From Limonium bicolor (Eukaryota > Streptophyta > Magnoliopsida > Caryophyllales > Plumbaginaceae), in the NCBI GenBank assembly GCA_023374045.1, contig CM041776.1:46134171-46198170 (forward strand): 64,000 nt of DNA, in the 5' to 3' direction. Below the pieces are notes generated by a model. It searched no databases, had not been told where the DNA came from, and worked only from the letters and a program-made list of their open reading frames with translations. Positions 9,731 to 43,104 of this stretch are shown here, one piece after another. How positions within the stretch are numbered: position 1 is the first letter of the stretch; the number at the start of each line of letters is the position of its first letter. Made by a program: the position numbers and the translations under genes.

Positions 9731-10230
9731 TGTAACACCACCCCAACCGTTAATCCTATGCTTACCGTCTAATCGTCCTGTTAATCCACGAGTTCGCAGC
9801 GGAAGAATACTACTTACTTACTACGGCGGGTGAAACAATGCCGCTAACCGCCCATACGGCTAGCAAGGCTACTAATACTTACAGTGACGGTCTGATGGCC
9901 AATAGATACCGAGCTACTAAAACAACTTACCAATTACAAATACATTCACTACCAAGGATTACCGAGTATTCGAAGTGCATTCATTACAACCTTCCAAGTT
10001 TCCCAAAAGAATGAGTATCTACCAACTACTCATCTATACCAATCAATCCCTTCACAATATCCCAAAAGGTGTACCCCATGGTACACCGGCTATTCAAAAA
10101 TCTAAGCCATGTACTACTCAGTACACCGATCTCAAATTCATTGTTTACATACAAAAAGAAGACAAGAAATTAACTAAGTCTTCATCCGCTTCACCCTTCT
10201 CTTGCACCTGCATTTATATTAAAAATGGTG

Positions 10231-10240
10231 CCCCAAGGGG
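10231..10240. promoter_or_regulatory. Conserved CCCCAAGGGG dyad, E1 3' LTR
   Basis: ccccaagggg is followed by 'ctcagcaaattgctgcgcat', the same context as the dyads at 1773, 20753 and 25982. Confidence 0.45.
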
Positions 10241-11354
10241 CTCAGCAAATTGCTGCGCATAAACTCCGCATATACCGATTGCTAGCAAGGGTACGCCGAC
10301 TAATTGGCGACCGCTAAACATGCTTGTTCATTACTCATACATACATGCTTTACATACAATCATACATACATTACATACATCATTCACTTCAAGGCAACAA
10401 TACAATAGAGTTCACAATACTTACCTTCACAAGGTTAGCCAATTGTGCATCCGGGTTAATCGGAATGCATATTACTCTTTTACTCATTACTTACTTCTTC
10501 TTACTTACAATTACTTACTTCCTTTTTACTTTACTTACTCATTCTTACTTACTTACTTATACTCAAGTCAAGTCGTCGGGACCTCCGGCCTTGGGGACTA
10601 CTACCGTCCCACATCCGGGATTTACTTGACTCACTAATCCGGGATGCTACCCACTTAAGGGATTTGGGCCGCGGACCAGTTTAAGAGTCAGGAATTGGAG
10701 CCAACCTCTCGTGACTCCGCATCCTCACGCGTGGCCGAAACTATATCGGACTTCTACTCATTCCAATTTATTTACCAATTTAAGTTAGGAGTTAGCTTGT
10801 TAGGAACAAGTTAGAAGTCCAATAATAATAGCAAACTCGGTCACAGTACAATACAACATACATACACACATTCATATCATCCATACATTTCATGAATTAT
10901 ACAAACTAAGATTAAGAAAATATACATCATACAACACTACATATTCACAAGTAAGCATATTAACTCCGATTCGTGCATTTATCTTTATTGGTGATCAATT
11001 AGCACACAACACACAAATCAGAGTAGCCATGATAGCATTCGGGGCATGAGGAATTCATACCGTTCACCGTTGTACGTAATTCCAAACGTCCTTCCGTGTC
11101 ACAAATCAATCCTATTATACATACAATTAATGATTAATTTAACTATCATTAACTTAACTCCTACTTACTATGTCCTTACATTTCTTACACTTATACTTTA
11201 CTTACTTATTTTCCCTTTACTTAAGTTTCCATCCTCTTACTTAAGGTTTGCATGCTTACACACATATACATATACATATATGTATGGGTATACATATACA
11301 TATATATATACAATTATTATTTAAATTAAATAATTTTTTTTTTTTTTTTTTTTG

Positions 11355-11880
11355 TCAGGACCGGACTTGCGACCGACCTTGCAAGTCCGGTCCATTCCAG
11401 TAGCACCGGTACCGAATTCCTGGCCCGACCGACTTGCAAGTCCGGTCGCAAGTTCGGTCGCTTCCAGTAGCTCAGGTTGCGGAAATTCTTCTGGCCGACC
11501 GAACTTGCAAGTCCGGTCGCAAGTTCCGGTCGATTCCAGTAGCTATCCTCGGGAAATTTTTCTGGGCCGACCGACTTGCATGTCCGGTCGCAAGTCCGGT
11601 CGATTCCAGTAGGTTACAGGATGGAAATTTTTCTGGCCGACCGAACTTGCAAGTCGGTCGCAAGTTCGGTCGATTCCAGTAGGTTCGGGGAATCGGTCCG
11701 ACCGACTTGCATGTCCGGTCGCAAGTCCGGTCGATTCCAGTTACAGACGGGAAAATTTCTGCCGACCGAACTTGCATGTCCGGTCGCAAGTCCGGTCGAT
11801 TCCAGTAGCTCACCCGTCTTTGTAAGTCTGGGCTCGACCGAACTTGCAAGTCCGGTCGCAAGTTCGGTCCGGCCCAGTAT
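11355..11880. repeat. Palindromic minisatellite in E1 3' LTR, about 70-bp unit
   Basis: Eight copies, each carrying gaccgaacttgcaagtccgg then tcgcaagttcggtc. The flanking arms gaccgaacttgc/gcaagttcggtc form a hairpin around aagtccggtc. Spacers contain 'gattccagtagc'. The arginine- and serine-rich ORFs on both strands are repeat artefacts. Confidence 0.85.
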
Positions 11881-13731
11881 TTGCATTTTAATTCTGTTTT
11901 CAATCCTCTCTTTAACCCATTACTTCCCCATTGTTCCTACACTTATTCCCACATGTTATAACACTAATTACACCTCCTAATACACCTTAGTTCACCATTA
12001 ACTCCTTACACAATTCTATACTCATTCACTCACATAATTTTCCAAGTTTCACTCAACACTGCACTAGTTACTTCCTAGTTACATTATGCTACAGATTTTA
12101 GTTCTAACTCTCTCCAACATTAGTTCCCTCTTCTAATGCCATTTCTAGCACTCTCAACGCATTATAATACATTATCTACTCTCTCAACTTATCTTCTATC
12201 TTCCTCAAACAAATCTGTTACAACTCACATTAGTTCACCTAGTTTTAAATTCACTAAGTGTTCTAATCCTAGGTAAATTTTGCCATAGTCTCTCTTGTAT
12301 TTCTATACACTCACCACATGGTCTAGTTCATATTTTAACACTTATCTCACCTGTTACAATAACATCAAAAACACAAGCTCCCATACACAACTACTAACAA
12401 AACACTACAAAATTCCTGCACTCAACTCCACATTCCCAATCTGTTTTAACAAGTTTTAAAATGTTCTTTAAGGTTTAAAACCTTGTTTCTCTTACACATT
12501 ACACTACTACCACATTGCCATTTTCATTACCAAATTTCAACTTATAAAATCTGTTACATACATATATACTCAGACTACACAATGAGAGTTCTCACCTTGT
12601 TTCCCTTCTAGGTTTCTTTCTCTTCTTTCTTTTCCCTTCTTCTCTCTCTCGGTTTTGGTACTTCAATCCACTAACACTACAACCATTCACATACATATCT
12701 CAATACACATACTAACCCTAACCATTCCTTAAAGCTTAAATGTACATTTTAGGGTTTAGGATTTTATATTACCTTCCACTAGAGCAAGTGCTGTTTGGAG
12801 TGGCTCAACAACAAAATTCCAACTCCACCAAGATGCCAAAATCGGCTAGATACACAAGAGAACCAACAAGGGTTTTAGCTTAAATTCGTTTTGCCCATAG
12901 ACAAGAAAAACGAAGGAGTTTAAAGAGATTTTTACCTCCAAAGAACAAGGAGACCAAGGTGGCTCTAATGGTGGTGTTGAAGCTTCAAATGGGATATACC
13001 CACAAAATCGAAAGCTTGTTTTGGATTTTGGAAAGATAAAGTGTAGCTCTTGGGAGAGGATTCCAATGGTGGTGTTTTTATAATTTTTGGAGAGGTTTGA
13101 GAGTTACAAGAGGAGAGAAGGGAGTTTTGTGTGGGTTTCTCTCTTTTCACCATGGAAATCGCATGGAAAGAAGGAGAAGAAGAGAGTGGTGAGGGGGCTT
13201 GTTCACGTGAGAGAGGAATGAGGATAGGAGAGAGAATGAAGAAAAGTGGGTAGAGTAATAAGGAGGTTTATTATTTTGTTGTTTTGTAAATAGAGAGGTG
13301 AGTGTGTGTGAGAGAGGGAATGGGGGGGGGGGGGTCCGATCGGACACACACACACACACCAACACTTTCACTTTTATTTTCAAAGTGGACACATAAGTTT
13401 GTGTTATTTATATTTCTACCCCACAACTTCCCGTTTTTGACAGTTTTTACTAATCTCTCGTTTTATTGATTTTATTGGTCCTAAAGCTTCACTAATATTT
13501 ATTAATGATTATTTAGTTGACCAAAACTGTTACGAGTCTATTTGACCCGCTTAAAGACACGTTTTCCCGGTTACCTCGAAAAACGCGCTTTAAGGTTCGT
13601 TAGTGATTTTAATCCATTTTAAGGATCCGTTTTCTTCGGGATTTGTTCCCTAATAATTATTTATACTTAATTAAGCTTCTAAATTACTTATTAGCCTAAT
13701 TAATCACTATTTTTAAATACGGGGTATTTCA

Positions 13732-13749
13732 ATCTACCCCCCTTAAGAA
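13732..13749 (-). promoter_or_regulatory. Polypurine tract of E1
   Basis: On the minus strand it reads tttcttaaggggggtagat and lies directly against the 3' LTR. It primes plus-strand DNA synthesis in this family. Confidence 0.85.
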
Positions 13750-14103
13750 ACTTTGCCCTCAAAGTTGCTCAAGGTTAATAGTTTAATATTATTCTACTCA
13801 TTAGGCAAACCAATTGTCCTAATGTGTCTTACTACACCTATGAGGTGTTTACTCCTTTCACATCACAAGCAACAATACACCATTCACCAATTCATACACA
13901 ATGCATCATTTCATTCATACCATACCACAATACACAATACACCATTACATTCACAATACACATTACAATCCACAATACACATTACACATACACATCCATA
14001 CACTACACTTACACATACATACACATCCATACTAAGTTCACTTGCACTACATGTGCCATACAAAATGCAATGCTTACCCCGAAGCAATGCAAAAGCAAAA
14101 GGG
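13750..14103. other. E1 3' untranslated region with simple repeats
   Basis: Lies between the end of pol and the PPT. It is dominated by degenerate acattacac/cacaatac repeats (about 13870-14040). The threonine/histidine/tyrosine-rich ORFs here are repeat artefacts, and no gene is seen. Confidence 0.7.
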
Positions 14104-14138
14104 CTCTACCCCCCTTAAAGGGGTACGACCCGTACCCG
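14104..14138 (-). promoter_or_regulatory. Stem-loop with internal polypurine tract (E1)
   Basis: The minus strand reads cgggtacgggtcgtacccct then ttaaggggggtagag. TACCCC and GGGGTA can pair around the TTTAA loop. It begins about 20 nt downstream of the pol stop codon and about 370 nt upstream of the PPT. Matching copies exist in E0 and in both E3 internal regions. Confidence 0.6.
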
Positions 14139-14158
14139 TATATTACATACTAGACTAA

Positions 14159-14647
14159 CTAGTCTACGAATAACTGTGGATACTTAGCCTTCATGGCATC
14201 TTCCAACTCCCATGTCGCTTCTTCGACATCATGGTTAGACCATAGGACCTTCACCATTCGTATCGACTTATGGCGAGTGTCTCTGGTCTTCCTATCAAGA
14301 TTCTCACTGGGGGTTTCAACATATCTCATGTTTGGCTCAATGGAAAGTCTCTCGGGCTCTAAGACATGAGAAGGATCAGCCATATACTTCTTGAGTTGTG
14401 ACACATGAAATACATCATGGACACGTCCCAAGTCCTCAGGTAATGCTAACCTGTAGGCTACTGAACCAACTCTTTCGGTGATAGTGTACGGCCCTACAAA
14501 CTTCGGGCTTAGCTTGCCCTTCTGACCAAAACGGAAGACACCCTTCATAGGTGAAACGCGCAAGAACACTTGGTCGCCCACGGCGAACTCAAGGTCGCGT
14601 CGTCTCACATCCGCATAGGATTTCTGTCTATCTTGGGCTGCCTTCAT
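14159..14647 (-). CDS. pol: Integrase C-terminus with chromodomain (E1 pol)
   Basis: This 162-codon segment continues the integrase one frame away. The N-terminal part has the GPY/F-type module (FVGPYTITERVG near residue 50) that follows the integrase core in gypsy elements. The C-terminal part (about 122-160) ends with a chromodomain-like stretch containing VKVLWSNHDVEEATWELED. In chromoviruses this domain is thought to bind histone marks and guide integration into heterochromatin. The frame break with the upstream integrase ORF at about 14645 is a single-base offset and may be a consensus error. The stop is at 14159-14161. Confidence 0.9.
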   Translation of the reverse strand: MKAAQDRQKSYADVRRRDLEFAVGDQVFLRVSPMKGVFRFGQKGKLSPKFVGPYTITERVGSVAYRLALPEDLGRVHDVFHVSQLKKYMADPSHVLEPERLSIEPNMRYVETPSENLDRKTRDTRHKSIRMVKVLWSNHDVEEATWELEDAMKAKYPQLFVD

Positions 14648-15726
14648 ATTAGCTCTAATTTGTTGACTTCGGCTTGCACTTGCTCAAGGTACTCCGGTCC
14701 TATGATGACCGCTTCACTTGACTCATCCCAACACAAGGGTGTACGGCAAGGTCTACCGTATAGAGCTTGGAAAGGCGACATCTTAATCGAGGCGTGATAA
14801 CTATTATTATACGAGAACTCGATAAGATGAAGCTTATCTAACCAACTCCCCTGAAAGTCCAAGGCACATGCCCGAAGCATGTCCTCCAGTGTCTGGATGG
14901 TCCTTTCTGTCTGACCGTCGGTCTGAGGATGGAAGGCGGTACTCAACTTCAATTCTGTACCCAACGCTTCCCTTGTAGCTCTCCAGTATCTCGAAAGAAA
15001 TCTGGTGTCGCGGTCAGATACTATGGTCTTAGGGACTCCGTGGTGTCTGATAATCTCCTTATCAAAAAGCTCAGCTAGCTTTACTACCTTCCAGGTGTCC
15101 TTCATCGGTATGAATCTGGCAACCTTGGTAAGGCGATCTACTACAACCCAGATCATGTTGAGTCCTCCCCTAGCAGGTGGGAGTCCTACAACAAAATCCA
15201 TGGAGATATCATGAAATTTCCACTCCGGAATTGGCATTGATTGTACCATTCCGCCCGGTCTACGATGTTCAAATTTCACCTTCTGGCATGTTAAGCATCT
15301 CAATACAAATTCTGTCACATCTGACTTCATTCCAGACCACCAGAAGTACCTCTTCATGTCTTTGTACATCTTGGAGGCTCCCGGATGGACTGATAATGTA
15401 GAACTATGTGACTCTCGCAGGATGCGATCCCTTAGCTCTGCATTGCTTCGGGGGACGCATAGCCTGCCATTCAACCGAATCAAACCATCTTCATGTAACT
15501 TGAAGTCATACTTTTTCTTTTCAAATGTACCATTTTCGATCTTTTGTCTGATTTCGGTTAGGTAAGGGTCGCTCAACTGAGCATCTCGCACCTCGTCAAC
15601 CAAGCTAGAAGAAGCGAGTAGCGAATGGAGCGAGTGTGCTCGACGGCTCAGGGCGTCGGCTACCACATTAGCCTTCCCTTCCTTATACTGCAGATTGATG
15701 TCGTAGTCTGAGAGAACTCCATCCAT
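14644..15726 (-). CDS. pol: Integrase (E1 pol)
   Basis: An uninterrupted 360-codon segment. The zinc-binding HHCC module is visible (His107, His114, Cys144, Cys147). The catalytic D,D-35-E triad is present: Asp177 in SMDFVVGLP, Asp238 in IVSDRDTRF and Glu274 in DGQTERTIQ. The first 30 residues are the tail of RNase H ([20 protein letters not shown]), which overlaps the upstream RT-RNase H ORF in another frame, so a frameshift lies at about 15700. The enzyme would insert the reverse-transcribed DNA into the genome. It looks functional apart from the frame breaks at both ends. Confidence 0.93.
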
Positions 15727-16925
15727 CTTCTCTGTCTCAAGTTGAGTTCTTTCTGAGTGAATACATACTGTAAGCTCTTATGATCGGAGTAGATGGTGAT
15801 GCTTACCCCATAGAGATAGTGTCGCCATATCTTCAAGGCGAAGACAATGGCTCCTAACTCTAAGTCGTGAGTCGGGTAATTCTCCTCATGTTTCTTCAGC
15901 TGGCGGGAGGCATAAGCAACAACCTTGCCATGCTGCATGAGTACGCATCCCATTCCTTTGCCTGATGCATCACAGTATACCTCAAATCCCTCTGTGCCCT
16001 CTGGAAGAGTAAGGATGGGCGCTGAGGTCAATGAGTCTTTAAGGCTCTGAAATGATACTTCGCACTCGTCTGTCCATACAAACGGTGCATCCTTTTTCAT
16101 CAATGTAGTCATGGGCTTAGCGACTTTCGAGAAGTCCTTTACGAATCTCCGGTAGTAACCGGCTAGACCAAGAAAGCTCCGAATGTCGGTAACAGTCTTA
16201 GGTCTAGGCCATGATCGTACAGCTTCTTTTAGAAGGGTCAACTGAGATACCTGCGCTCGAGATGACATGTCCAAGGAATGATACCTGATCAAGCCAAACT
16301 CGCATTTGGAGAACTTCGCATACAGCTGGTTCTCGCGCAGTGTCTCTAGCACTTTCCTCAAGTGAATTTCATGTTCCTCTGGTGACTTAGAATATACAAG
16401 GATGTCGTCGATGAAGACCACAACCGAAGTGTCCAACTGCTCACTGAATAAACGATTCATGAGGTCCATGAATTTTGCCGGTGCGTTTGACAAACCGAAT
16501 GGCATCACTGTGAATTCGTAGTGGCCATATCTGGTACGGAATGCCGTTTTCTCGATGTCTTGCTCTTTGATTGCAATCTGATGATACCCAGAACGGAGGT
16601 CAATCTTGGAAAAGACCGATGCTCCTTTCAACTGGTCAAATAGGTCGTCGATGCGTGGCAATGGGTATTTGTTTTTGACTGTGACCGCATTCAGCTCGCG
16701 GTAGTCAATACAAAGGCGGAGACTACCGTCCTTCTTCTTCACGAAGAGGACCGGTGCTCCCCAGGGTGATACGCTCGGGCGTATAAACCCTTTGTCTAGA
16801 AGATCTCTCAATTGTTCTTTCAGTTCGGTCATCTCTGCTGGTGCCATGCGGTACGGTGCCCTAGCAATGGGACCGGTACCTGGCAATAGATCAATTTCGA
16901 ATTCAACTGCTCTCGGTGGTGGCAT
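15660..16925 (-). CDS. pol: Reverse transcriptase and RNase H (E1 pol)
   Basis: A 421-codon ORF. The RT domain spans about residues 35-210: the first catalytic Asp is in [13 protein letters not shown] (Asp109) and the FIDD box holds Asp173-Asp174. RNase H spans about 310-390, with Asp319 (YCDAS), Glu355 (HDLELGAI) and Asp381 (YSDHKSL). Residues 213-232 do not fit the family although both sides do, which indicates two compensating single-base indels near 16230-16290. The end past residue 405 has run into a wrong frame. It copies element RNA into DNA and removes the RNA strand, in virus-like particles. Confidence 0.93.
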
Positions 16926-16938
16926 GCCGGGTAGCTCC

Positions 16939-17352
16939 TTAGGGAATACATCGGATACTCAGATACATCGGTACATCATCACTGAACTCTGGATCTCTCT
17001 CCAGGTCTTGCACATGACACAGATACACTTCGTGGCCCTTTCTGAGCTCCCGGTACATAGCCATAGCAGATATAAGGGTGGTCGAAGGCTCTCTCGGTCT
17101 CTGGCGGTAAGATACGGTAACCCCAGAAGGACTCTTGAGCAGCAGTCGATGCTCGGCGCAGAGGATTCTACCCTTGTGCCGCTCCAACCAATTCATCCCA
17201 ATGATTAAGTCGAATCCCAATCCATTGAATTCGATGAAGGAAATGGGAAACGCTTCCTTTTTAATTTCGATGGTGGCTGATTGATAGTATTTGGTGCACT
17301 TTACTCGCTCCTTCGATGGGAGTAACCATGAAGTTCGGTATCTCATCCGCAT
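16939..17352 (-). CDS. pol: Protease to RT linker (E1 pol), frameshifted
   Basis: Continues the protease in a different frame. It holds the conserved C-terminal protease part with the hydrophobic [16 protein letters not shown] motif (about residues 51-66). It is then followed by the linker to RT, which re-enters the RT frame near 16925-16940. Frame breaks at both ends indicate single-base indels. Confidence 0.8.
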
Positions 17353-17617
17353 CTAGCTTCAACCTCTTCACAAAGGATGGTGATACGAAGGTGTGAGAGG
17401 CGCCGGAGTCGAATAACACATTGGCATCAATGCCATTTACTGGGAAGGTTCCCGTTAGAATGGTGCCGCTTCTGCCGGCTTGTGCTTCGGTGAGGATGCT
17501 CAGGTTACCTTCGGTACCGAGTCCACAACCTATTGGATTCACAATTGGATAAGTATTGATGGTGGACACAAGTGGAATTAAATCAACACTGCTCTTTATT
17601 GATAAACCAACCATCAT
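17261..17617 (-). CDS. pol: Aspartic protease (E1 pol), N-terminal part
   Basis: A 118-codon ORF beginning with a double Met at 17617. The retropepsin active site is Asp70-Ser71-Gly72 in NVLFDSGASHTFV, and the preceding ILTGTFPVNG stretch is typical of plant gypsy proteases. It loses its frame after about residue 100 (near 17320) and continues in the next ORF. Unusually, it does not follow gag directly: an AlkB-like ORF with its own stop codon (17666-17668) and a 48-nt spacer lie between. Translation of pol would therefore need a separate start, readthrough or alternative splicing. Confidence 0.85.
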   Translation of the reverse strand: MMVGLSIKSSVDLIPLVSTINTYPIVNPIGCGLGTEGNLSILTEAQAGRSGTILTGTFPVNGIDANVLFDSGASHTFVSPSFVKRLKLDADEIPNFMVTPIEGASKVHQILSISHHRN

Positions 17618-17665
17618 GTCGTGTCTCTAATACACGTTACTAATAGATTACATGATACTATGAAT

Positions 17666-18422
17666 TTAATACTTCCTAAAGGTAAGGTTCAGGCGTCCTG
17701 GTTTCATGTGTGTGGCATTGATTATTGCCGGCGGTGCCGTATTCAACTTGATCTTGTTGATCCCGTGATACAGCATCCTGAGTTTCCACCCATGATGAGG
17801 ACATCTCCTGATCTCAATACCAATTTCTCTGCGAGGTCCACACGCTTCTGCTGCTCGCTATACAGGAATATGGCGTCATCACCAATGGACCAAGACACTA
17901 CGGGCACTCCTTGTTCAGAGATTCCGCTGTCTCGTCCTTGTCTTGGTGTAACCCAAGTCGTCCTTCTTTTTCATAGAAGTTGACGATACAAAGGTCCGCT
18001 TCAAGTGCGGGGATTGGTTCAGTTCACATTGCTGTGCAAGTTCTACTGCTTGAGTGATGAGGGTCTGAAACTCTGGTGGTATTGTCGGTGGCGTCGCTCC
18101 ATCTTGTGTTCGTGTCTCCTGGTATGTCTTGGTATAAGGATTCCAGTCCTTTCCCAAGCACATCATCTTCAGCTTCATCTTCGCTCCACCGGGAATTCGG
18201 GTGTGTAAAATCCACCTTGACCCGTTCCTAGCTCGTTGCATCGTCGAATAATTGAGATTTGCGCTTCGGGTGTCAGGTATCCCTTAATAAGATCATACCT
18301 GGGCGGATGACCTGACACTGTTTGTTGGTGTAGTCGTTGTTGGTGATGTCGATCTCTTCTTGATTCAAGGTTACCGGTATTGGGTAACAGATACTAAAGC
18401 TTCCTATGGTTACAAATTTCAT
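17666..18422 (-). CDS. AlkB-like Fe(II)/2-oxoglutarate dioxygenase ORF inside the retrotransposon (frameshifted as sequenced)
   Basis: About 251 codons from an ATG at 18422 to TAA at 17666, read across at least five single-base frame changes. AlkB-type signatures appear in the right order. The iron ligands HxD lie in GLHQDKDE (His at 17946-17948, Asp at 17940-17942). A SGDVLIMGG block follows, then the distal His in YHG (17765-17767), then the RLNLTFR ending with both 2-oxoglutarate/substrate arginines (17693-17695 and 17675-17677). An upstream KMMCLGKDW block fits the ALKBH1-like plant subgroup, in my judgement. Members oxidatively remove methyl groups from nucleic acids. The ORF has no intron, which suggests capture from a spliced mRNA. 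It sits in sense orientation between gag and protease. The catalytic residues survive, so the indels may be sequence errors; demethylation of element RNA or DNA is only a hypothesis. Confidence 0.85.
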
Positions 18423-18559
18423 CTACGGTGAGTACTAGTTTTAACTACTTCATTTCATGCTCAATACATACTTCAATTCATTCATTTACTCATGCATTCA
18501 CTCATACAATTACTCTAATACTAGGCATGCTATCAAGGATTAAAGGTTTAGGTGATTAC
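18423..18559 (-). other. Predicted intron 3 between gag and AlkB-like ORF
   Basis: A 137-nt AT-rich segment with donor CAG|GTAATC and acceptor CCGTAG|ATG on the minus strand. It contains many stops. Splicing joins a complete gag codon to the AlkB ATG in frame, which would give a Gag-AlkB fusion. The segment could instead be an untranslated spacer. Confidence 0.5.
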
Positions 18560-18902
18560 CTGGCCGGATTTCGAACCGGGCCCATCGCGGTCAATCACAT
18601 GCAGAACAGGCTGCCTCTGAGGTGCGCCTCTCTGAGGGCCCCGGGATCCCTGTCCCTGAGGTGCCTGCTGGGCCGGTGCATCGCCGGATGCCACCTCCTT
18701 GCCCTCTCTCTGCTTATAGCTCTGGAAGTTTCCTTTGGGCTTCCCATTCTCCGGGCATCGATTAGCAGTGTGCCCCAACTTCTGACAGTTGTAACACTTG
18801 ATGTCTCTCCCAAACAATCTTTACCAGGGTGGTCCTGGTTGCACTTCCTGCACACATAGGTGCGGCCGTCGGTGAAGGTTTTGGCGGCTCCGGAGCTAGA
18901 AC

Positions 18903-18984
18903 CTGAGGTTAGAGGGTTAGCACATGTGTGCGTGGGTATACTAGAAATGATACTTATATGAATACGAATTGGAATAGAATTTAC
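18903..18984 (-). other. Predicted intron 2 in gag
   Basis: 82 nt with donor AAGG|GTAAATTC and acceptor CTAACCTCAG|GTTCTAGC on the minus strand, the latter preceded by a pyrimidine-rich stretch. Removal joins a Lys-rich linker (KSWKKKKGNFF and following) to the first zinc knuckle with the frame preserved (G+GT = Gly). Confidence 0.6.
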
Positions 18985-19258
18985 CCTTAGGAGGGTGTGA
19001 TCTCAGTGGCTTAGCTGCCACCGGTGCAGAATAACCAAGCTGAAGGATCTCAGCTGGTTTGCCCTGCTCAGCATGGGCACTGCTCTCACTTGGGGACTTC
19101 TTCTGAGAAAAGAAGTTCCCTTTCTTCTTCTTCCAGCTTTTACCCTGGTTCTGCTCCTCGGTGCTGGTGTTTTTGTTGTTAGCCTTGCGCTTCAGCGCGG
19201 TTTCCTCATCCCTTAACTGGCAAGTGATCTCAACGCGAGAAGCCGCGTGATAACACTC

Positions 19259-19371
19259 CTGAAGTTTCAGGTATTAGCCGGGATGATGTTTAAGAAAGAA
19301 TAAGGAAAAGATTCAAGGAATTCAAGGAATTGAAATGAATTGAATTGATACTAGGGTCAACCGATATTTAC
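19259..19371 (-). other. Predicted intron 1 in gag
   Basis: 113 nt, AT-rich, with donor TTCAG|GTAAATATC and acceptor ACTTCAG|GAGTG on the minus strand. It separates the capsid end (GMGYTRLP) from the ECYHAASRVEITCQ stretch that normally follows it in chromoviral gag. A one-base offset remains at the junction, attributable to a nearby indel. Confidence 0.6.
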
Positions 19372-20025
19372 CTGAAGGGAGGTAACCTGGTATAGCCCAT
19401 ACCGTACCGAAGGCGATGGCTCAGACCGCCATAGAAGCGATCGACCAACACCTGGCCGGTGTATCCAGATCGGGGAGGAGACGAGAATGGAGGTGAAGGT
19501 GCGGTAGTACTCATCACAGACATCTTGTCTGTCATCTTTAAGCGTCTAGCTCTAGCCTTTTCTTCGTTTTTACATGCTCCGGATAGTACTTGGATCGGAG
19601 GAGAGATGCGAAGGAATCCCAATCGAAGGTGGGGTCGCTTACGTGCTCTTGCTTCACCATTTCCACCAATCCATTGCCGCATCCTTTAAGTAGTACGCAG
19701 CAACTCTGACTCGAACTCCAGCAGGAGCTTCGAGTGTCTCAAAAGCGGTCTCCATTTCGGAGATGTACGCTTCTAGCTTAGCCGGATCACTCTCGCCCCT
19801 AAAGCAAGGAGGGCGGAGTTCCGCTACAGCTTTGACCCAGTTAGCTTCTCTGGGTGGAGGGGCGGGATTGGCCCCGTTGAGTTTGTTGGTTTTGCTGAGT
19901 TTGTTGTACAGCTTGTATACTTGTGGTAGCATCTGCTACCGTGGCGGCACGATCTCAGCTATCGTCTGCGCGCCGGTTCCATCTGAGGCTTCGCCTCTAG
20001 GTCGGCCTCGGCCTCGTCCTGACAT

Positions 20026-20235
20026 CTGAATGTTTTAACAGTTACATTAGGCTCCACAAGAATGACTCAAAGGTCTTGGAATTAAAACATGGTATCGTTT
20101 CATATGAACGTTAAGGGTATCCGTTGTTAACAAGGTATTCCTAGTTAGGTGTTTCTAAGTATCCGTCTTGACGGTTGAAATCCTAACTCGGTAATCTCCT
20201 ATGCTCGGTACTTTAGGACATCAGAGCGTAACTAC
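20026..20235 (-). other. E1 5' leader
   Basis: Untranslated segment of about 210 nt between the PBS and the gag ATG. No gene is seen. Like other elements here it carries an inverted repeat of agcgtag around the PBS (near 20224-20240). Confidence 0.6.
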
Positions 20236-20247
20236 GCTCTGATACCA
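20236..20247 (-). promoter_or_regulatory. Primer binding site, tRNA-iMet type (E1)
   Basis: The minus strand reads TGGTATCAGAGC, complementary to the 3' end of plant initiator tRNA-Met. It begins five bases from the 5' LTR end (tgttaca). Confidence 0.95.
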
Positions 20248-20752
20248 CTTTTTGTAACACCCCAACCGTTAATCCTATGCTTACCGTCTAATCGTCCTGT
20301 CAACCTACGAGTTCGCAGCGGAATATTACTACTTACACGGCGGGGGTGAAACAATGCCGCTAACCGCCCATACAGCTAGCTAGGCTACCAATACTTACAA
20401 TCACGGTCTGATGGCCAATAGTACCGAGCTACTAAAAACAACTTACCAATTACAAAATACAAGTGCTTACATCAAGGGATTACCGAGTATTTAAAGTGTG
20501 TTCATTACAACCTTCCAAGCTTACCAAAAGAATGAGCTCCTATCCTATGCTCATCTATACCAATGCCATCCGTTCACAGTATCCAAAAAGGTGTACCCCA
20601 TGGTACACCGGCTAATCAAAAACTGTAGCCCTGTACTACTTAGTACACCCATATCCAATTCATTGTTTACATACAAAAAAGAAGATAAAAGGAATGGAAG
20701 TAGATCTTCACATCTTCATCAATCTCGAGTACCTGCGTGTAGTAAAAATGGT

Positions 20753-20763
20753 CCCCCAGGGGG
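20753..20763. promoter_or_regulatory. Conserved CCCCC-A-GGGGG dyad, E1 5' LTR
   Basis: cccccaggggg followed by 'tccagcttacgctgcgcatg'. It occupies the same LTR position as the dyad at 10231. Confidence 0.45.
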
Positions 20764-21869
20764 TCCAGCTTACGCTGCGCATGAACTCCGCATATACCGA
20801 TTGCTAGCAGGGTACGCCGACTAATGGCGACCGCTAAACATGCTGTTCATTACTCATCATACATGCTTTACATACAATCATACATGCATCACAATACATC
20901 ATTCACTTCAAGGCAACAATACAATGGAGTTCATAATACTTACCTTCACAAGGTTAGCCAAATTGTGCATCCGGGTTAATCGGAGTGCATATTACTCTTT
21001 TACTCATTACTTACTTGTTCTTACTTACAATTACTTACTTCCTTTTACTTTACTTACTCATTCTTACTTACTTACTTATACTCAAGTCCAGTCGTCGGGA
21101 CCTCCGGCCTTGGGGACTACTCCGTCCCACATCCGGGATTTACTTGACTCACTAATCCGGGATGCTACCCACTTAAGGGATTTGGGCCGCGGACCAGTTA
21201 AGAGTCAGGAATTGGAGCCAACCTCTCGTGACTCCGCATCCTCACGCGTGGCCGAAACTATATCGGACTTCTACTCATTCCAATTTAATTACCAATTTAA
21301 GTTAGGAGTTAGCTGGTAGGAATAAGTTAGAAGTCCATTCATAACATATTCGGTCACAGTACATTCATCATACATACACCATTCATATCACATATATTTC
21401 ATGAAGTATACAAACTAAGATTTAAAGAAAATATACAACATCATGCAACACTACATATTCACAAGTAAGCATATTAACTCCGATTCGTGCATTTATCTTT
21501 ATTGGTGATCAATTAGCACACAAACACACAAATCAGAGTAGCCATGATAGCATTCGGGGCATGAGGAATCCATACCGTTCACCGTCGTACGTAATTCCAA
21601 CGTCCTTCGATGTCACAAACCAAGTCCTATTACATACATACCATAAATGATTAATTTACCTATCATTACTTAACTCTACTTACTATGTCCTTACATTTTT
21701 ACACTTATACTTTACTTACTTATTTTCCCTTACTTAAGTTTCCATCTCCTTACTTAAGATTTGCATGCTTACACACATATACAATACATATACATATATG
21801 TATGGGTATACATATACATATATATATACAATTATTATTTAAATTAAAATAATTTTTTTTTTTTTTTGT

Positions 21870-22350
21870 CAGGACCGGACTTGCGACCGACCTTGCAAGT
21901 CCGGTCCATTCCAGTAGCTACCAGTACCGAAAAATCCTGGCCCGACCGAACTTGCAAGTCCGGTCGCAAGTTCGGTCGCTTCCAGTAGCTCAGGTTGCGG
22001 AGATTCTTCTGGCCGACCGAACTTGCAAGTCCGGTCGCAAGTTCGGTCGATTCAGTAGCTATCCTCGGGAAATTTTCTGGGCCGACGAACTGCATGTCCG
22101 TTCGCAAGTCCGGCATCCGTCGGTCGATTCCAGTAGGTTACAGGATGGGAATTTTTCTGGCCGACCGAACTTGCAAGTCCGGTCGCAAGTTCGGTCGATT
22201 CCAGTAGGTTACAGACGGGGAAAATCTCTGGCCCGACCGAACTTGCAAGTCCGGTCGCAAGTCCGGTCGATTCCAGTAGCTCACCCGTCTTTGTAAGTCT
22301 GGGCTCGACCGAACTTGCAAGTCCGGTCGCAAGTTCGGTCCGGCCCATTT
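21870..22350. repeat. Palindromic minisatellite in E1 5' LTR
   Basis: About seven copies of the roughly 70-bp gaccgaacttgcaagtccgg-type unit. It is the counterpart of 11355-11880 with a different copy number. Confidence 0.85.
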
Positions 22351-24230
22351 GCATTTTAAATTCTGTTTTCAGTCCTCTCTTTAACCCAATACTTCCCATT
22401 GTTCCTACACTTAATCCTACATGTTTTAACGCTAATTACGCCTCCTAATACACCTTAGTTCATCCATTAATTCCTTACACAATTCTATACTCATTCACTC
22501 ACATAACTCTCCAAGTTTCACTCAACACTTGCACTAGTTATTTCTTCTAGTTACATTATGCTACAGATTTTAACCCTTACACCTCTCCTCTACATCTCCC
22601 TCTCTTAATGTCATTTCTAACACTCTTACTATATCTAGAATCCATTATCTAGCTCTCTCAACTTTCCCTCTAACTACCCAAATCAAAATCTGTTACAACT
22701 CACATTAGCCATCTAGTTTTAATTCTCTAAGTGTTCTAATCCTAGGCAAATTTTGCCATAGTCTCCCCTATAATTTATACTCTCACCACATGTTCTAGTT
22801 CACATTTTCAACACTCATCTCACCTGTTTCGACAATCAATATACACAAGCTCCCATATACAATCCCAATACTAAAACAACACTAAAAACACTACAAAATT
22901 CCTGCACTCAAGATACCATTCCCAATCTGTTTAAATGAGTTTTACAACATCTATTAAAGCTTCCAAAATACTTATATTCTCCTACACATTACACTACTAA
23001 TACATTATCATTTACAATACACATTTTTACTTCTAAAAATCTGTTACATTACATATACAAGGCTATACAAGGGTGAGCATTATTACCTTGATTCTCTTCT
23101 AGATTTCCTTTCTTCTTCTTTCTCCTTCCTTCTCTCTCTCTCTACCGGTTTTCAACCCAAACTTCCAATGCTACAGCCCATCAAACACACATCTCAATAC
23201 AACCATTTTAATACCAACTAACCTAACCATTATATAAGTTCTAATATAGATTTTAGGGTTTAGCAATTTGGTTACCTTTCAAGAGTGCAAATGAAGCTTG
23301 GAGTGGTTCAAGAATGAGATTTCCAACTCCTTCAACAAGCCAAAATCGCGCTAGAACATAAGAGACCAAACAAGGGTTTAGTCTAAAACTCGTTTTGCTC
23401 TTAAGGCTAGAAAAACAATGGAGTTTTCGAAATATTTTTACCTTAGAAGAAAGGAGACCAAGGTGGCTCTAATGGTGGTGTTGAAGCTTCAAATGGGGTA
23501 TACCCTCAAAATCGAAATTGCTCCTTTTGGATTTTGGAAAGGTGGAAGTGTAGCTCTTGGAGAGAGGACACAATGGTGTTTTTACAATTTTGGAGAATGT
23601 ATGAGGGAGTTACAAAGGAGAGAAGTAGAGGTTTTTAGTTGTTCTTCTTGTTCACCATGGAAACCGATGGAGAGGTTGGAGAAGAAAGAAAAGAGAGTGA
23701 GGGGAAGGGCATTCACGTGAGAGAGAAGAGAATGAGAGGAGAGAGGAGAGAGTAGAAAGTGAGGTGGGGGTTACTTTTATGATTTTGTCTTTTGTAAATA
23801 GTGAGTGAGTGTGTGAGAGAGAGGGGGAAAAGAGCCCATCGGCTAGCATACACACTCACACACAATCTTCACTTTTTATTTTAGAAGTGGACACATAAGT
23901 TTCAGTTATTTATACTTCTACCCCACAACTTCCCGTTTTGACAGTTTTACTAATCTCTCGTTTTATTGATTTTATTGGTCCTAAAGCTTCACTAATATTT
24001 ATTAATGATTATTTAGTTGACCAAAACTGTTACGAGTCTATTTGACCCGCTTAAAGACACGTTTTCCCGGTTACCTCGAAAAACGCGCTTTAAGGTTCGT
24101 TAGTGATTTTAATCCATTTTAAGGATTCGTTTTCTTGGGATTTGTTCCCTAATAATTATTTATACTTAATTAAGCCTCTAAATTACTCATTAGCCTAATT
24201 AATCATTATTTTTTTAAATACGGGGTTTCA

Positions 24231-25578
24231 TATACATATATGGGGTATCATACTGATACATTACTACTTACCTAACTAACCTATAAGTAGGTCTGTCAGG
24301 TCCACATGCTCCTATCGGAGTGCGGTCGTCCCACAACACAGTGGTACACTTGTAGTGTCCGTCACACGCCTAGGTGAAGTATTCTGTTGTCAACTCCCTT
24401 ATGTTGTCCCGTGACAATATTCATTCCCTGCTTCCCGAACTTAATCGAGGGAAAGTTTATCCACTGTTGCATCCTTGTCAGTTGCTCTTGGTTTCACTGG
24501 TTTGGTTTAAAGAAGGTTGGAAAGAAGTGTTGGTTGAAAGAAAATCTGGGTTGAAAAGAAAAGAGTTTGCGAAAGATTAGGTTTGAAAGAAAAATTTCCA
24601 TGGTCTCACAACATCTTCTTACCTTAGCCAAGTCTAGCTTCTTGCTGACTGGTGTGTTTACAATTACAGAGGTTAGGCTAACAGGCCCTTCCACTGTTAT
24701 GACAATCACATTTAACTTCATTGTACTTCCAAGTACTTCGTAGTGGTTATAATTTCCCGAACAGCCCTGTTATAGCAGCACTTGCTATGGCAAGTGCGCC
24801 ATGCTAACTGGCTATCGGTCAACACATACCGGTTGTGGTATGTGTTTTGACCCATATTGTCATCAGTGGCTGTGTTGCCCTCACTGATCTTACTGCCTTG
24901 TAAATACTCCTCTAGGTGACTTCTCACTGTTTTCACATGATGATCAGTAGCTAGGGTGTTTCCCTTTCTGGGAGACCCCGTTCTCATAGTATTGTATTCA
25001 CTTTGTAGTCCGTTCCACGTATTTGGGCACTACCTTGTAGTTCCCTTGTCGGTTGGTATACCGTTGGTGCATTATTTATCAACTGTGGTCCCGTAGACAC
25101 TCGTCTCGGGTTTTACTAATCCATTTCTTGCCTGTTGCACAGTTAGTGCATTGCAAGTTGGTTGTTTTCGACTGCTCGGCATGTCGACCCAGGTGCTGGA
25201 AATTCTATTCTCTTATACACAAAATTCTTCATTCTTCACTATTAAATGCGGTTAACACTGTCCAGATGGAGACCGTCTCCGGGATTCCCAGTTTCGGGAT
25301 CTACCGTATGACAGGTTCTCCGTACCCTTAAAGGTATTTACTAACAGCCAGATCGGGTATTCCCGAGTAAGAGAGAGACTTTCATCTCTCTGGCGTTGTT
25401 TCCCAAGTTATATAACAGGGATTGTGGGAGGGTGGGATGGATATAGTAGGTTTCAGTATTCATTGGAGTTCCTTACTAGCGTATCTCTCACGCTATCACT
25501 CAACCCTTAACCCAAAGTACTTAAATCCTAACTCGGTACTTTCTAAGCTCGGTAATTCAGTCATCAGAGCGATACTTC
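24231..25578 (-). mobile_element. E2 internal region, 5' part only
   Basis: Follows the E2 PBS on the minus strand and is cut at 24230 by E1. The reverse complement of 24280-24660 matches E0 at about 2340-2660. A 90-codon ORF (24987-24718, minus, starting MRTGSPRKGN) is the best coding candidate. It is not recognised, and no pol motif is seen. Confidence 0.65.
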
Positions 25579-25590
25579 GCTCTGATACCA
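25579..25590 (-). promoter_or_regulatory. Primer binding site, tRNA-iMet type (E2)
   Basis: The minus strand reads TGGTATCAGAGC, five bases inside the LTR end at 25596. Confidence 0.92.
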
Positions 25591-25981
25591 CTTTTTGTAA
25601 ACCCCATCCAACAACAAACACATAATAACAATCCGCAGCGGAAACTCAACTCATCACATTATTTATTCCAATGGTGTACACGCCGTTAACCACCCCACGT
25701 GGCTAACAAGGCTAATACATGTACATTTGTATCGGTCTGATGGACTAGATTCCCGAGCAACTACACAATACGATCCTCATTCCATCTTCAACATTTATTA
25801 TATACTACACTCCCCCTGTACCGAGTATTTACAACTACTGCCGATAACAGCTTCGGTCTTACTACGCCTATCATATTCATGCCATTTAAATGGCTACCCA
25901 TGTATAAACATCTGCCCCGTCCTACTCTCGAACGGCTTCCAGCACTTCGTACCTGAAATAGGAAAAGAAGAGAAGGGGTGG

Positions 25982-30247: not shown

Positions 30248-30366
30248 AGGGGTGCAACACGAGGACTTCCCAGGAGGTCACCCATCCTAGTACTACCCTC
30301 GCCCAAGCACGCTTAACTTCAGAAATCTGATGGATCCAGTGCATTAGTGCTGGTATGGTCGCACCC
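30248..30366 (-). rRNA. 5S rRNA gene, unit 1
   Basis: 119 nt, matching plant 5S rRNA along its full length. Differences include taccctcg, agaaatctga, a missing g in gatggatcc, and ccagtg. It is the copy next to the E2 LTR. 5S rRNA is a Pol III product of the large ribosomal subunit; whether this copy is expressed is unknown. Confidence 0.93.
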
Positions 30367-30592
30367 GTTATGATTGTTGCAACAATTACCACTTATACGG
30401 TTTTAGACACTAATCAAGAACAACGACAAAACTACATTTTCGACGACCTGCGAAAAGAGTATTGAACGCTTTCTCAATAAAAAACGATAACACACATAAA
30501 TGATTCAAATGGAGGCGCACTATAAACTCAGTTAAATTACTCGTCAAATATCCACAAAATATGGAAGTAAAAAAAGAAGTCAGGAAAAAAAG

Positions 30593-30637
30593 AGGGGTGC
30601 AACACGAGGACTTCCCAGGAGGTCACCATCCTAGTAC
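30593..30637 (-). pseudogene. Truncated 5S gene, unit 2
   Basis: Only the 3' 45 nt remain. ctagtac runs straight into spacer cacttatatgg, removing the first ~75 nt of the gene and the proximal promoter. Confidence 0.9.
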
Positions 30638-30841
30638 CACTTATATGGTTTCAGACGCTAACCAAGAACAATGACAAACTACATTTTCGACGACCTGCAA
30701 AAGAGTATTGAACGATTTCTTAATAAAAAACGATAACACACCTAAACGATTCAAATGGAGCGCACGATAAACTCAATCAAATTACTCGTAAAATATCACA
30801 CTAAATATAAAAGTAAAAAACAAGAAGAGTCGAGAAAAAAA

Positions 30842-30968
30842 AGGGGGTTGTGAACACGACGAGGACTTCCCAGGAGGTCACCCATCCTAGTACTACTCTC
30901 GCCCAAGCACGCTTAACTTCAGAGTTCTGATGGGATCCGGTGTCATTAGTGCTGGTATGGTCGCACCC
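30842..30968 (-). rRNA. 5S rRNA gene, unit 3
   Basis: Full length, with small insertions near its 3' end (gggggttgtgaacacgacgagg) and one extra t in gtgtcattag. First unit of higher-order block 1. Confidence 0.88.
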
Positions 30969-31192
30969 GTTATGATTGTGCAACTTTACCACTTATACGG
31001 GTTGAGACGCTAAATCAAGAACAACGACAAAACTACATTTTCGACGACCGGGAAATGAGTATTGAACGATTTCTCAATAAAAAAACGATAACGCACATAA
31101 ATGATTCAAATGGAGCGCACGATAAACTCAATTAAATTACTCGAAAAATATCACCTAAATATGGAAGTAAAAAAAAAGAAGTCAGGAAAAAG

Positions 31193-31238
31193 AGGGGTGC
31201 AACACGAGGACTTCCCAGGAGGTCACCCATCCTAGTAC
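31193..31238 (-). pseudogene. Truncated 5S gene, unit 4
   Basis: Same truncation junction as unit 2 (ctagtac|cacttatatgg). Confidence 0.9.
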
Positions 31239-31441
31239 CACTTATATGGTTTCAGACGCTAACCAAGAACAACGACAAAACTACATTTTCGACGACCTGC
31301 GAAAAGAGTATTGAACGATTTCTCAATAAAAAACGATAAACACATAAATGATTCAAAGGAGCGCACGATAAACTCAATCAAATTACTCGTCAAATATCCC
31401 ACAAAATATGGAAGTAAAAAAAAGAAGAGTCAAGAAAAAAG

Positions 31442-31562
31442 AGGGGTGCAACACGAGGACGTCCAGGAGGTCACCCATCCTAGTACTACTCTCGCCCAAG
31501 CACGCTTATCTTCGAGTGTCTGATGGGATCCGGTGCATTAGTGCTGGTATGGTCGCACACCC
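31442..31562 (-). rRNA. 5S rRNA gene, unit 5
   Basis: Full length with gacgtcc, cttatcttcgagtgtctg and an extra ac in gcacaccc. The gacgtcc/cttatcttcg variant recurs in units 13 and 26. Confidence 0.9.
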
Positions 31563-31784
31563 GTTATGATGTGCAACTTTTACCACTTATACGTTGGTTC
31601 AGACGCAAAATCAAGAACAACGACAAACTACATTTTCGACGACCTGCGAAAAGAGTATTGAACGATTCTTAATAAAAAACGATAACACACATAAATGATT
31701 CAAATGGAGCGTACGATAAACTCAATTAAATACTCGAAAAATATCACACTAAATATGGAAGTAAAAAGAAGGTCAGGAAAAAAG

Positions 31785-31901
31785 AGGGGGCAAACAGAGG
31801 ACTTCCCAGGAGGTCACCCATCCTAGTACTACTCTCACCCAAGCACGCTTAACTTCGAGTTCTGATGGGATCCGGTGCATTAGTGCTGGTATGGTTGCAC
31901 C
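31785..31901 (-). rRNA. 5S rRNA gene, unit 6
   Basis: Full length with a disturbed 3' end (gagggggcaaacagagg), ctctcaccc and ggttgcacc. Confidence 0.88.
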
Positions 31902-32128
31902 GTTATGATTGTGCAACGATTACCACTTATACGGTTTTAGACACTAAATCGAGAACAACGACAAAACTAGATTTTCGACGACCTGCGAAAATAGTATTGA
32001 ACGATTTCTCAATAAAAAACGATAACACACATAAATGATTCAATGGAGCGCACTATAACTCAGTCAAATTACTCGTAAAATATCACACTAAATATGGAAG
32101 TAAAAAAAAAGAAGAGTCAGGAAAAAAG

Positions 32129-32247
32129 AGGGGTGCAACACGAGGACTTCCCAAGAGGTCACCCATCCTAGTACTACTCCGCCCAAGCACGCTTAACTTC
32201 GGAGTTCTGATGGGATCCGGTGCATTAGTGCTGGTATGGTCGCATCC
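32129..32247 (-). rRNA. 5S rRNA gene, unit 7
   Basis: Full length with ccaagagg, ctactccgccc and gcatcc at the 5' end. The ccaagagg/gcatcc pair recurs in units 10 and 15. Confidence 0.92.
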
Positions 32248-32476
32248 GTTATGATTGTGCAACTATTACCACTTATATGGTTTCAGACGCTGAACCAAGA
32301 ACAACGACAAAAACTACATTTTCGACGACCTGCGAAAAGAGTATTGAACGATTTCTCAATAAAAAACGATAACGCACATAAATGATTAAAATGGAGCTCA
32401 CGATAAACTCAATCAAATTACACGCCAAATATCCCACCAAATATGGAAGTAAAAAAAGAAGAGTCAGGAAAAAAAG

Positions 32477-32594
32477 AGGTGTGCAACACGAGGACTTCCC
32501 AGGAGGTCACCCATCCTAGTACTACTCTCACCCAGCACGCTTAACTTCGGAGTTCTGATGGGATCCAGTGCATTAGTGCTGGTATGGTCGCACC
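32477..32594 (-). rRNA. 5S rRNA gene, unit 8
   Basis: Full length with gaggtgtgc, ctctcacccagcac (one a missing), ccagtg and a missing c at the 5' end. Confidence 0.92.
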
Positions 32595-32825
32595 GTTATG
32601 ATTGTGTTGCAACTATTACCACTTGTACGGTTTCAGACGCAAAATCAAGAACAACGACAAAACTACATTTTCGACGACCTGCGAAAAGAGTATTGAACGA
32701 TTTCTTAATAAAAAACGATAACACACATAAATGATTCAAATGGAGCGCCACGATAAACTCAATTAAATTACTCGAAAAATATCACACTAAATACGGAAGT
32801 AAAAAAAAGAAGTCAGGAAAAAAAG

Positions 32826-32945
32826 ACGGGTGCAACACGATGACTTCCCAGGAGGTCACCCATCCTAGTACTACTCTCGCCCAAGCACGCTTAACTTCAG
32901 AGTTCTGATGGGATCCGGTGCATTAGTGCTGGTATGGTCGTACCC
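32826..32945 (-). rRNA. 5S rRNA gene, unit 9
   Basis: 120 nt with gacgggtg, gatgactt, cttcagag and cgtaccc. Same variant set as unit 17. Confidence 0.93.
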
Positions 32946-33172
32946 GTTATGATTGTGCAACATTACCAGTTATACGGTTTAAGACACTAAATCAAGAACA
33001 ACGACAAAACTACATTTTCGACGACCTGCGAAAAGAGTATTGAACGATTTCTCAATAAAAAACGATAACACACATAAATGATTCAAATGGAGCGCACTAT
33101 AACTCAGTCAAATTACTCGTAAAATATCACACTAAATATGGAAGTAAAAAAAAGAAGAGTCAGGAAAAAAAA

Positions 33173-33292
33173 AGGGGTGCAACACGAGGACTTCCCAAGA
33201 GGTCACCCATACTAGTACTACTCTCGCCCAAGCACGCTTAACTTCGGAGTTCTGATGGGATCCGGTGCATTAGTGCTGGTATGGTCGCATCC
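33173..33292 (-). rRNA. 5S rRNA gene, unit 10
   Basis: 120 nt with ccaagagg, catactag and gcatcc. Last unit of higher-order block 1. Confidence 0.93.
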
Positions 33293-33522
33293 GTTATGAT
33301 TGTGCAACTATTACCACTTATATGGTTTCAGACGCTGAACCAAGAACAACGACAAAACTACATTTTCGACGACCTGCGAAAAGAGTATTGAACGATTTCT
33401 TAATAAAAAACGATAACACACATAAACGATTCAAATGGAGCGCACGATAAACTCAATCAAATTACTCGTAAAATATCACACTAATATAAAAGTAAAAAAC
33501 AAAGAAGAGTCGAGAAAAAAAG

Positions 33523-33640
33523 AGGGGTGCAACACGAGGACTTCCCAGGAGGTCACCCATCCTAGTACTACTCTCGCCCAAGCACGCTTAACTTCAGAGT
33601 TCTGATGGGATCGGTGCATTAGTGCTGTATGGTCGCACCC
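33523..33640 (-). rRNA. 5S rRNA gene, unit 11
   Basis: Two single-base losses (gatcggtg, gctgtatgg) and cttcagag. First unit of higher-order block 2, counterpart of unit 3. Confidence 0.92.
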
Positions 33641-33866
33641 GTTATGATTGTGCAACTTTTACCACTTATACGGTTTGAGACGCTAAATCAAGAACAACGA
33701 CAAAACTACATTTTCGACGACCTGGAAATGAGTATTGAACGATTCTCTCAATAAAAACGATAACGCACATAAATGATTCAAATGGAGCGCACGATAAACT
33801 CAATTAAATTACTAGAAAATATCACACTAAATATGGAAGTAAAAAAAAAGAAGTCAGGAAAAAAAG

Positions 33867-43090: not shown

Positions 43091-43104
43091 TTTTAAAAAA
43101 AAGC

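Follow-up and report, generated by a model that had tools for sequence, protein, structure and literature searches.

An ALKBH1-type dioxygenase domain in a chromovirus-type Ty3/gypsy element of Limonium bicolor, probably expressed as an alternative 3′ exon of gag

A stretch of 64,000 nt from Limonium bicolor (CM041776.1:46,134,171-46,198,170, assembly GCA_023374045.1; hereafter the window, to whose positions all coordinates refer) contains a minus-strand long terminal repeat (LTR) element at 9733-24216, within which gag, protease (PR), reverse transcriptase (RT), integrase (IN), a weak chromodomain match, and an AlkB exon are found. Judging from comparisons of sequences, it is probable that this is a chromovirus-type Ty3/gypsy element that has stably acquired an ALKBH1-type dioxygenase, expressed as an alternative 3′ exon of gag. 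The window copy itself is a broken member, since frame switches or stops occur in gag exons 1 and 3, in AlkB, and in pol; all lesion counts given here are numbers of such switches or stops and are lower bounds.

The AlkB Domain and Its Type

The AlkB signature named in the original prediction for this DNA (HQDKDE, SGDVLIMGG, LYHG, and RLNLTFR) is present in the window pieces. The domain order on the minus strand, obtained from Pfam searches in which the pieces were searched apart, is gag CCHC, AlkB, RVP_2 protease, RT/RNase H (RH), integrase, and the weak chromodomain match, which agrees with the predicted position of AlkB between the gag zinc knuckles and the protease in sense orientation. 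The single open reading frame (ORF) then described is not seen, as the AlkB pieces lie in different frames with at least three lesions across 754 nt (18422 to 17669).

The PF13532 (2OG-FeII_Oxy_2) profile, the lack of any match to which had been named as a ground for abandoning the prediction, is matched by three of the four separately searched window pieces, and these cover consecutive profile parts: 16-89 (E 8.1e-4, 20.1 bits), 119-163 (E 1.5e-8, 35.5 bits; the sole piece above the Pfam cut-off of 31.2 bits on its own), and 163-194 (E 1.4e-4, 22.6 bits). No PF13532 match was obtained with the 72-residue N-terminal piece. The HxD...H iron ligands and the RxxxxxR pattern for 2-oxoglutarate are found in the window pieces and in all 40 genome copies described below.

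With regard to the AlkB type, the best solved structure for single window pieces is 5xeg, whose entry title is OsALKBH1 (E 6.4e-9 and 4.5e-12). A protein-collection search with one window piece returned one relative, P0001, which, used as a query, matched 107 proteins (itself included) at E <= 0.01 among 185 candidates. The group closest to the window AlkB consists of six proteins (P0001-P0004, P0018, and P0019; sources ena and lgn), which we infer from their sequences to be element-borne. For each of five window pieces, the top match is a member of this group of six, ahead of the 13 plant and eight bacterial proteins compared; when each relative is set against the best host protein, the exceptions are P0003, which is behind in piece a, and P0019, which is behind in pieces h and c. 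When combined into a profile, the six matched 5xeg at E 7.8e-81.

A structure model of P0002 built with 78 sequences reached a predicted local distance difference test (pLDDT) value of 96, whereas a model from six sequences was poor (pLDDT 43). The best structural match of the pLDDT 96 model is OsALKBH1 (template modeling score 0.93-0.94, 52% identity), followed by E. coli AlkB and then by mammalian ALKBH1, with ALKBH2, 3, 5, and 6 ranking lower and ALKBH5 at rank 49 among the best 50 rows. OsALKBH1 (5xeg/5xoi) is therefore first in both sequence and fold, and the domain belongs to the ALKBH1 subfamily in the plant sense; because bacterial AlkB ranks above mammalian ALKBH1, it is the rice protein that supports this label.

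Bacterial AlkB is a repair enzyme, and its rank behind OsALKBH1, together with the distance from ALKBH5, favors the possibility that the element enzyme serves in damage repair, i.e., that it reverses m1A/m3C-type alkylation in packaged RNA or single-stranded complementary DNA (cDNA) and so unblocks reverse transcription, with no role in silencing. RNA repair was also suggested for the AlkB domains of plant RNA viruses in the accessible part of one report (PMC9289625). However, the work on rice ALKBH1, as far as its source is available, concerns 6mA (PMC10469495), and repair as the only role is considered rather unlikely.

In phylogenetic trees, one of which included 19 of the 40 genome copies, all 13 angiosperm proteins group together (support 99/97 and 100/100), with the element-type proteins outside this clade. 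The proposed uptake of a host ALKBH gene is not demonstrated by these trees, in which the comparison is with the 13 angiosperm proteins. The approximately unbiased test does not reject (p 0.288), but also does not demonstrate, a single clade comprising every element-type protein. Capture predating the sampled angiosperm proteins and fast evolution are both possible.

A scan of viral contigs with query A2 gave three distant AlkB loci of 33-37% identity, and the viral-contig scans with P0001, an RT piece, and an integrase piece gave no matches. A genome-contig scan yielded 70 loci, every title being bacterial, and a gag search found no protein at E <= 0.01 among 77 candidates.

Genome Copies and Constraint

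A PF13532 search of the host assembly (2.92 Gb) listed 38,325 first-look candidates, of which the best 150 were scored. Each of the 150 spans profile positions 1-194 with a score exceeding the cut-off, and 149 are free of internal stops; the open AlkB frames are mostly 253 residues long. Forty of them were taken with flanks, 20 spread down the list and 20 picked for varied frame length. The HxD motif is kept in all 40 (LHQD in 35, and I or M preceding H in five), as are R.LYHG and GR..LTFR. Since the 19 copies placed in the tree fall into two well-supported groups and the window AlkB shares 66-75% nucleotide identity with eight genome loci, the window copy is treated as a third subfamily.

Ratios of nonsynonymous to synonymous divergence (dN/dS) were low in the AlkB frame. 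Among the 780 possible AlkB pairs of the 40 copies, 765 have dS >0.02 and 764 fall into dS classes, whose medians are 0.12, 0.12, 0.10, 0.08 (one pair), and 0.10. The corresponding medians are 0.08-0.25 for PR-RT (53 pairs; 13 of 40 copies, each with 200 open codons) and 0.23-0.56 for gag exon 2 (334 pairs; 32 of 40 copies without a stop). LTR ends of ~670-780 bases were compared for 15 copies, six of which gave no match and nine of which did, including copy L097 of a tandem array. The eight other LTR pairs differ by a Kimura two-parameter distance (K2P) of 0.0015-0.025, with 0 to 14 gaps, which indicates that the AlkB domain is carried by recent insertions.

These data bear on the possibility that the domain is a mere passenger, i.e., a functionless transduced gene fragment spreading with the element. 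The capture of gene fragments by LTR retrotransposons is documented in the available portion of one source (PMC7264820), the window copy is broken, and the sampled copies are biased toward intact ones. Nevertheless, the scored matches are almost free of stops, the active-site motifs and the splice link (see below) are kept, and dN/dS stays low even between subfamilies with dS >1, so that a passenger is scarcely credible. A lone copy evolving without constraint had been named beforehand as fatal to the prediction; the genome-wide PF13532 search and the dN/dS comparison instead gave whole-domain matches throughout the scored set and, within a biased sample, constraint on the amino acid sequence.

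As a separate observation, four AlkB copies in the same orientation lie at G000:C1:497439466-497470353 with a spacing of ~10.1 kb. In L097, which is one of them, another primer binding site (PBS) comes right after the 3′ LTR, as in a tandem array with shared LTRs.

Putative Gag Introns and the Predicted Gag-AlkB Junction

In the window, gag is broken three times by short blocks with GT at the start and AG at the end (Table 1). These blocks are 63-67% AT (intron 3 being measured to 18423), compared with 41-48% in the three gag exons. The same three positions, with phases 0, 1, and 1, were read by eye in two subfamilies (L099 and L083 in one, L089 in the other; the phase of intron 2 in L099 and L089 only). 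These positions recur in the window, where the phase agrees at intron 2. Splice dinucleotides were tabulated for 41 aligned rows, i.e., the 40 copies and the window. Counts for the first two introns are given in Table 1; donor 3 is GT in 39 of 41 rows, the GT of the window lying one column off and being scored as a miss, and acceptor 3, which precedes AlkB, is AG in 40 of 41.

It might be argued that the blocks are spacers and that it is frameshifting or reinitiation, not splicing, that connects Gag, AlkB, and Pol. Frameshifting is used by many LTR elements. On the other hand, the blocks differ from the gag exons in AT content, GT or AG stands at their ends in 37 to 41 of the 41 rows (acceptor 2 excepted), phases agree on both sides in the copies read, and in-frame stops occur inside blocks 1, 2, and 3 in 37, 34, and 40 of the 40 copies, which makes joining without splicing very improbable.

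Intron 3 connects Gag to AlkB in frame in the copies read from the two subfamilies. Conserved GT-AG introns whose matching phases join the frames, the pattern expected of Ogre-like splicing, are thus present as far as sequence can tell. The AlkB "ORF" seems to be an alternative exon joined to Gag by splicing rather than the ORF of its own that was first described. The ATG at 18422, previously taken as its start, lies inside the intron, as alignment places the beginning of the exon at ~18403. An independent AlkB ORF starting at 18422 was accordingly rejected, the other copies having no start there, and an intron 3 acceptor first set at 18423 was replaced by 18404 after alignment with the genome copies.

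Another possibility, in line with what was proposed for orchid elements, is that internal initiation or a subgenomic RNA yields AlkB as a separate, diffusible enzyme whose targets are the RNAs of both host and element. The AlkB frame ends in a stop of its own, and there are Met codons further in, e.g., before the GYLTP stretch; in the available text on the orchid element, ORF2 is treated as expressed independently of Gag-Pol (PMC9289625). However, in all 34 copies whose open AlkB frame shows the conserved N-terminal IC(Y/F)P motif, no Met precedes this motif in that frame (six of the 40 are without the motif in the open frame), so that an internal start would lose the conserved N-terminal part, and the AlkB acceptor is kept in all rows but one. 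Separate production is therefore regarded as unlikely.

A second, putative 3′ splice acceptor lies beyond AlkB. AG occurs at one column in 41 of 41 rows, at a median of 180 nt (122-188) past the AlkB stop, and reads as YAG followed by G in all 40 copies. Directly downstream of this Pol acceptor, 22 of 40 copies have at least 100 open codons in the phase-1 frame, compared with 0 and 1 copies for the other two frames. In the backward direction, the median distance from the acceptor to an in-frame stop is six codons, and an ATG is present there in four of 40 copies, and for this reason Pol also seems dependent on the gag donor. One gag donor and two acceptors of equal phase would give Gag-AlkB or Gag-Pol, and AlkB and Pol therefore look like alternative 3′ exons.

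Proposed Mechanism

Briefly, alternative splicing would yield two products, Gag-AlkB and Gag-Pol, and the unspliced RNA, given that introns are retained in the copies, would be the genome of the element. Gag-AlkB would be incorporated in the virus-like particle, bringing the enzyme onto the element's own nucleic acid, where it may strip N-methyl marks or alkyl damage, of the m6A/m1A type on RNA or the 6mA/3mC type on single-stranded cDNA. Removal of such marks might keep methylation-dependent control by the host from acting on the genome copy, or might prevent its reverse transcription from being blocked. It was reported, in the accessible portions of two sources, that m6A restrains a retrotransposon, as seen for ONSEN RNA and ALKBH9B (PMC9289625, PMC12786077). 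The fuller proposal combines retrovirus-like splice control, in which the gag donor picks either the demethylase or the Pol exon in a mutually exclusive manner, with delivery of the enzyme in the particle as a Gag fusion that cleans or unmarks its own RNA or cDNA, and with AlkB having been captured independently for a second time among plant Ty3/gypsy elements; it is put forward tentatively, with slightly less than an even chance of being correct.

Several points weigh against the proposed acquisition and expression of the domain. Splicing, substrate, particle packaging, and benefit are all predictions from sequence. In the window, the frames fail to line up at introns 1 and 3. AG is found at the reference column of acceptor 2 in just 30 of 41 rows, being shifted in L089 and the window. 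In 18 of 40 copies, the Pol frame is open for fewer than 100 codons from its acceptor, Pol often being broken. Among 12 intron and spacer comparisons between L099, L089, and the window, nine are not above the best of 30 shuffles, and the three others are modestly more alike than shuffles, so that shared ancestry may account for part of the conserved sites. A strong caveat is that the copies come from the top of the score list, which skews intactness, dN/dS, and youth toward good copies, and dS values above 1 are saturated, although the comparison between subfamilies is less exposed to sampling bias than that within them. In addition, the nearest characterized plant relative is, according to the part of its source at hand, a DNA 6mA demethylase, a less direct fit to RNA demethylation (PMC10469495).

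If the proposal is correct, AlkB enzymes would have been recruited at least twice by plant retrotransposons, from different subfamilies and in different lineages, which would point to adenine methylation or alkylation as a genuine pressure on retrotransposition. With an ALKBH1-type enzyme fused to Gag, it becomes testable whether the target is packaged RNA, cDNA, or host molecules. For a chromovirus, the predicted choice of either the AlkB exon or Pol would, moreover, represent a novel mode of controlling Gag and Pol.

The Element and Its Surroundings

The element is of the Ty3/gypsy type, with paired LTRs around gag and pol and the order PR-RT-RH-IN (Table 1). As regards the predicted chromovirus carrier, a Ty3/gypsy element with chromovirus-like pol is indeed present, but the Chromo match (PF00385) in the window copy is weak (E 0.0046, 17.3 bits versus a Pfam cut-off of 25.1); SH3_Tf2-1 is matched at E 1.2e-26 in the same copy. 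The 12-nt PBS, which we take to be complementary to tRNA-iMet, is found upstream in 34 of the 40 genome copies. Long LTRs and this PBS are only suggestive of the Tekay affiliation named in the original prediction.

Table 1. Features of the element in window coordinates.
Feature	Position	Strand	Basis and remarks
3′ LTR, ~4.0 kb	9733..13732	-	direct repeat of 20253-24216; ends placed by eye
pol: protease, RT, RNase H, integrase, SH3_Tf2-1, weak chromodomain match; frames broken	14159..17529	-	Pfam; at least 4 lesions
Spacer with putative second 3′ splice acceptor at its end (YAG, phase 1), for Gag-Pol	17530..17665	-	
AlkB exon (ALKBH1-type 2OG-Fe(II) dioxygenase), own stop codon, frame broken in window copy	17666..18403	-	PF13532 in pieces; best solved relative 5xeg/5xoi
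Intron 3, GT-AG; phase 1, in-frame Gag-AlkB junction in genome copies read	18404..18559	-	
gag exon 3, two zinc-knuckle motifs, frame broken in window copy	18560..18902	-	zf-CCHC E 1.2e-6 (one motif); second by eye; at least 1 lesion
Intron 2, GT-AG, phase 1	18903..18984	-	GT 37/41; AG 30/41 at reference column; acceptor position varies between subfamilies
gag exon 2	18985..19258	-	open frame, 0 lesions
Intron 1, GT-AG; phase 0 in genome copies read	19259..19371	-	GT 37/41, AG 38/41 aligned rows
gag exon 1 (capsid part), frame broken in window copy	19372..20025	-	Ty3_capsid match below cut-off, one piece; at least 2 lesions
Primer binding site TGGTATCAGAGC	20236..20247	-	read in sequence, just inside 5′ LTR
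5′ LTR, ~4.0 kb; divergence from 3′ LTR mosaic	20253..24216	-	ends placed by eye

Assembly noise as a source of the frame breaks in the window was considered from two counts. The 27 5S rRNA genes described below carry 121 substitutions and 18 indel events and are thus not indel-rich in look, while 36 of 83 LTR gaps are of homopolymer type, which bears on assembly noise as a partial source. The LTR pair of the window element is mosaic, with K2P of ~0.03 in middle blocks and ~0.07-0.30 elsewhere, and no target-site duplication was seen by eye; given these two features, the window element is possibly recombinant. Its LTRs contain a 71-bp tandem repeat (11381-11869 and 21895-22340). A segment at 25523-25595, 85% similar over 75 alignment columns to the region beside the PBS, is probably a remnant of a second related element.

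Elsewhere in the window, a 5S rRNA gene array occupies 30249-47776 on the minus strand, with 27 genes at the Rfam gathering score and a unit of ~346 bp. Between two blocks of this array lie CACTA-type transposase ORFs (38473-41738, minus strand), three of the four scanned having Transposase_21 (tnp2), Transpos_assoc, and DUF4218 matches. A 54-bp minisatellite occurs twice, at 52493-53201 and 60267-60967, ~7.8 kb apart, with 13 units and 92-93% matches in each, and open frames traverse both copies.

Comparison with Known Systems

In plants, the likeness to ALKBH1 proteins (OsALKBH1, ALKBH1C/1D-like, and abh1-like) is the closest in sequence and fold. Unlike these, the element-type relatives are without a stretch of up to ~10 residues of the aligned host proteins and lie outside the host clade in trees.

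Splicing and additional ORFs have both been described in plant LTR elements. According to the accessible text of one source, the polyprotein of the Ogre elements of pea and Medicago is expressed via a spliced intron, and Ogre is the plant element named as spliced in the literature surveyed on chromovirus introns (PMC6317226). Splicing is likewise proposed here, but the present, chromovirus-like element has three putative gag introns together with a competing acceptor. Tekay elements of sunflower and grasses are chromoviruses in which conserved extra ORFs also occur; however, their additional 5′ ORF (5′aORF) occupies the 5′ end, most of the sunflower protein is disordered, and a dioxygenase is unmentioned in the available part of the source (PMC11728184).

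No other AlkB-bearing Tekay or gypsy element was found in the literature beyond the orchid family described next, an absence that is weak since the search covered open-licence papers only. The statement in the original prediction that no standard chromovirus with this module is known fits this literature, but a precedent exists in a Ty3/gypsy element that is not a chromovirus (PMC9289625, as far as available). This is the Gypsy_Pa_2799 family of Phalaenopsis orchids, Tat/Ogre elements with an ALKBH5-type domain (Alvarado-Marchena et al. 2022, PMC9289625). In the portions of that report at hand, its AlkB binds RNA and removes m6A in vitro, and a consensus screen of 121 angiosperm genomes is described as finding PF13532 in no species other than orchid. 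Both are Ty3/gypsy LTR elements with an additional AlkB domain, intact cofactor residues, and many copies. As described there, Gypsy_Pa_2799 is ~25 kb long, with an Ogre-like PBS (tRNA-Arg) and dual RNase H, whereas a chromovirus-like pol and the PBS TGGTATCAGAGC are found here. The orchid AlkB is of the ALKBH5/9/10 type and forms a separate ORF2 beside a single Gag-Pol ORF, whereas the Limonium domain is of the ALKBH1 type and appears to be joined to Gag, differing in both AlkB type and position. AlkB in plant Ty3/gypsy elements is thus already known from orchids, and it is the lineage, the AlkB subfamily, and the predicted expression scheme that differ in Limonium bicolor.
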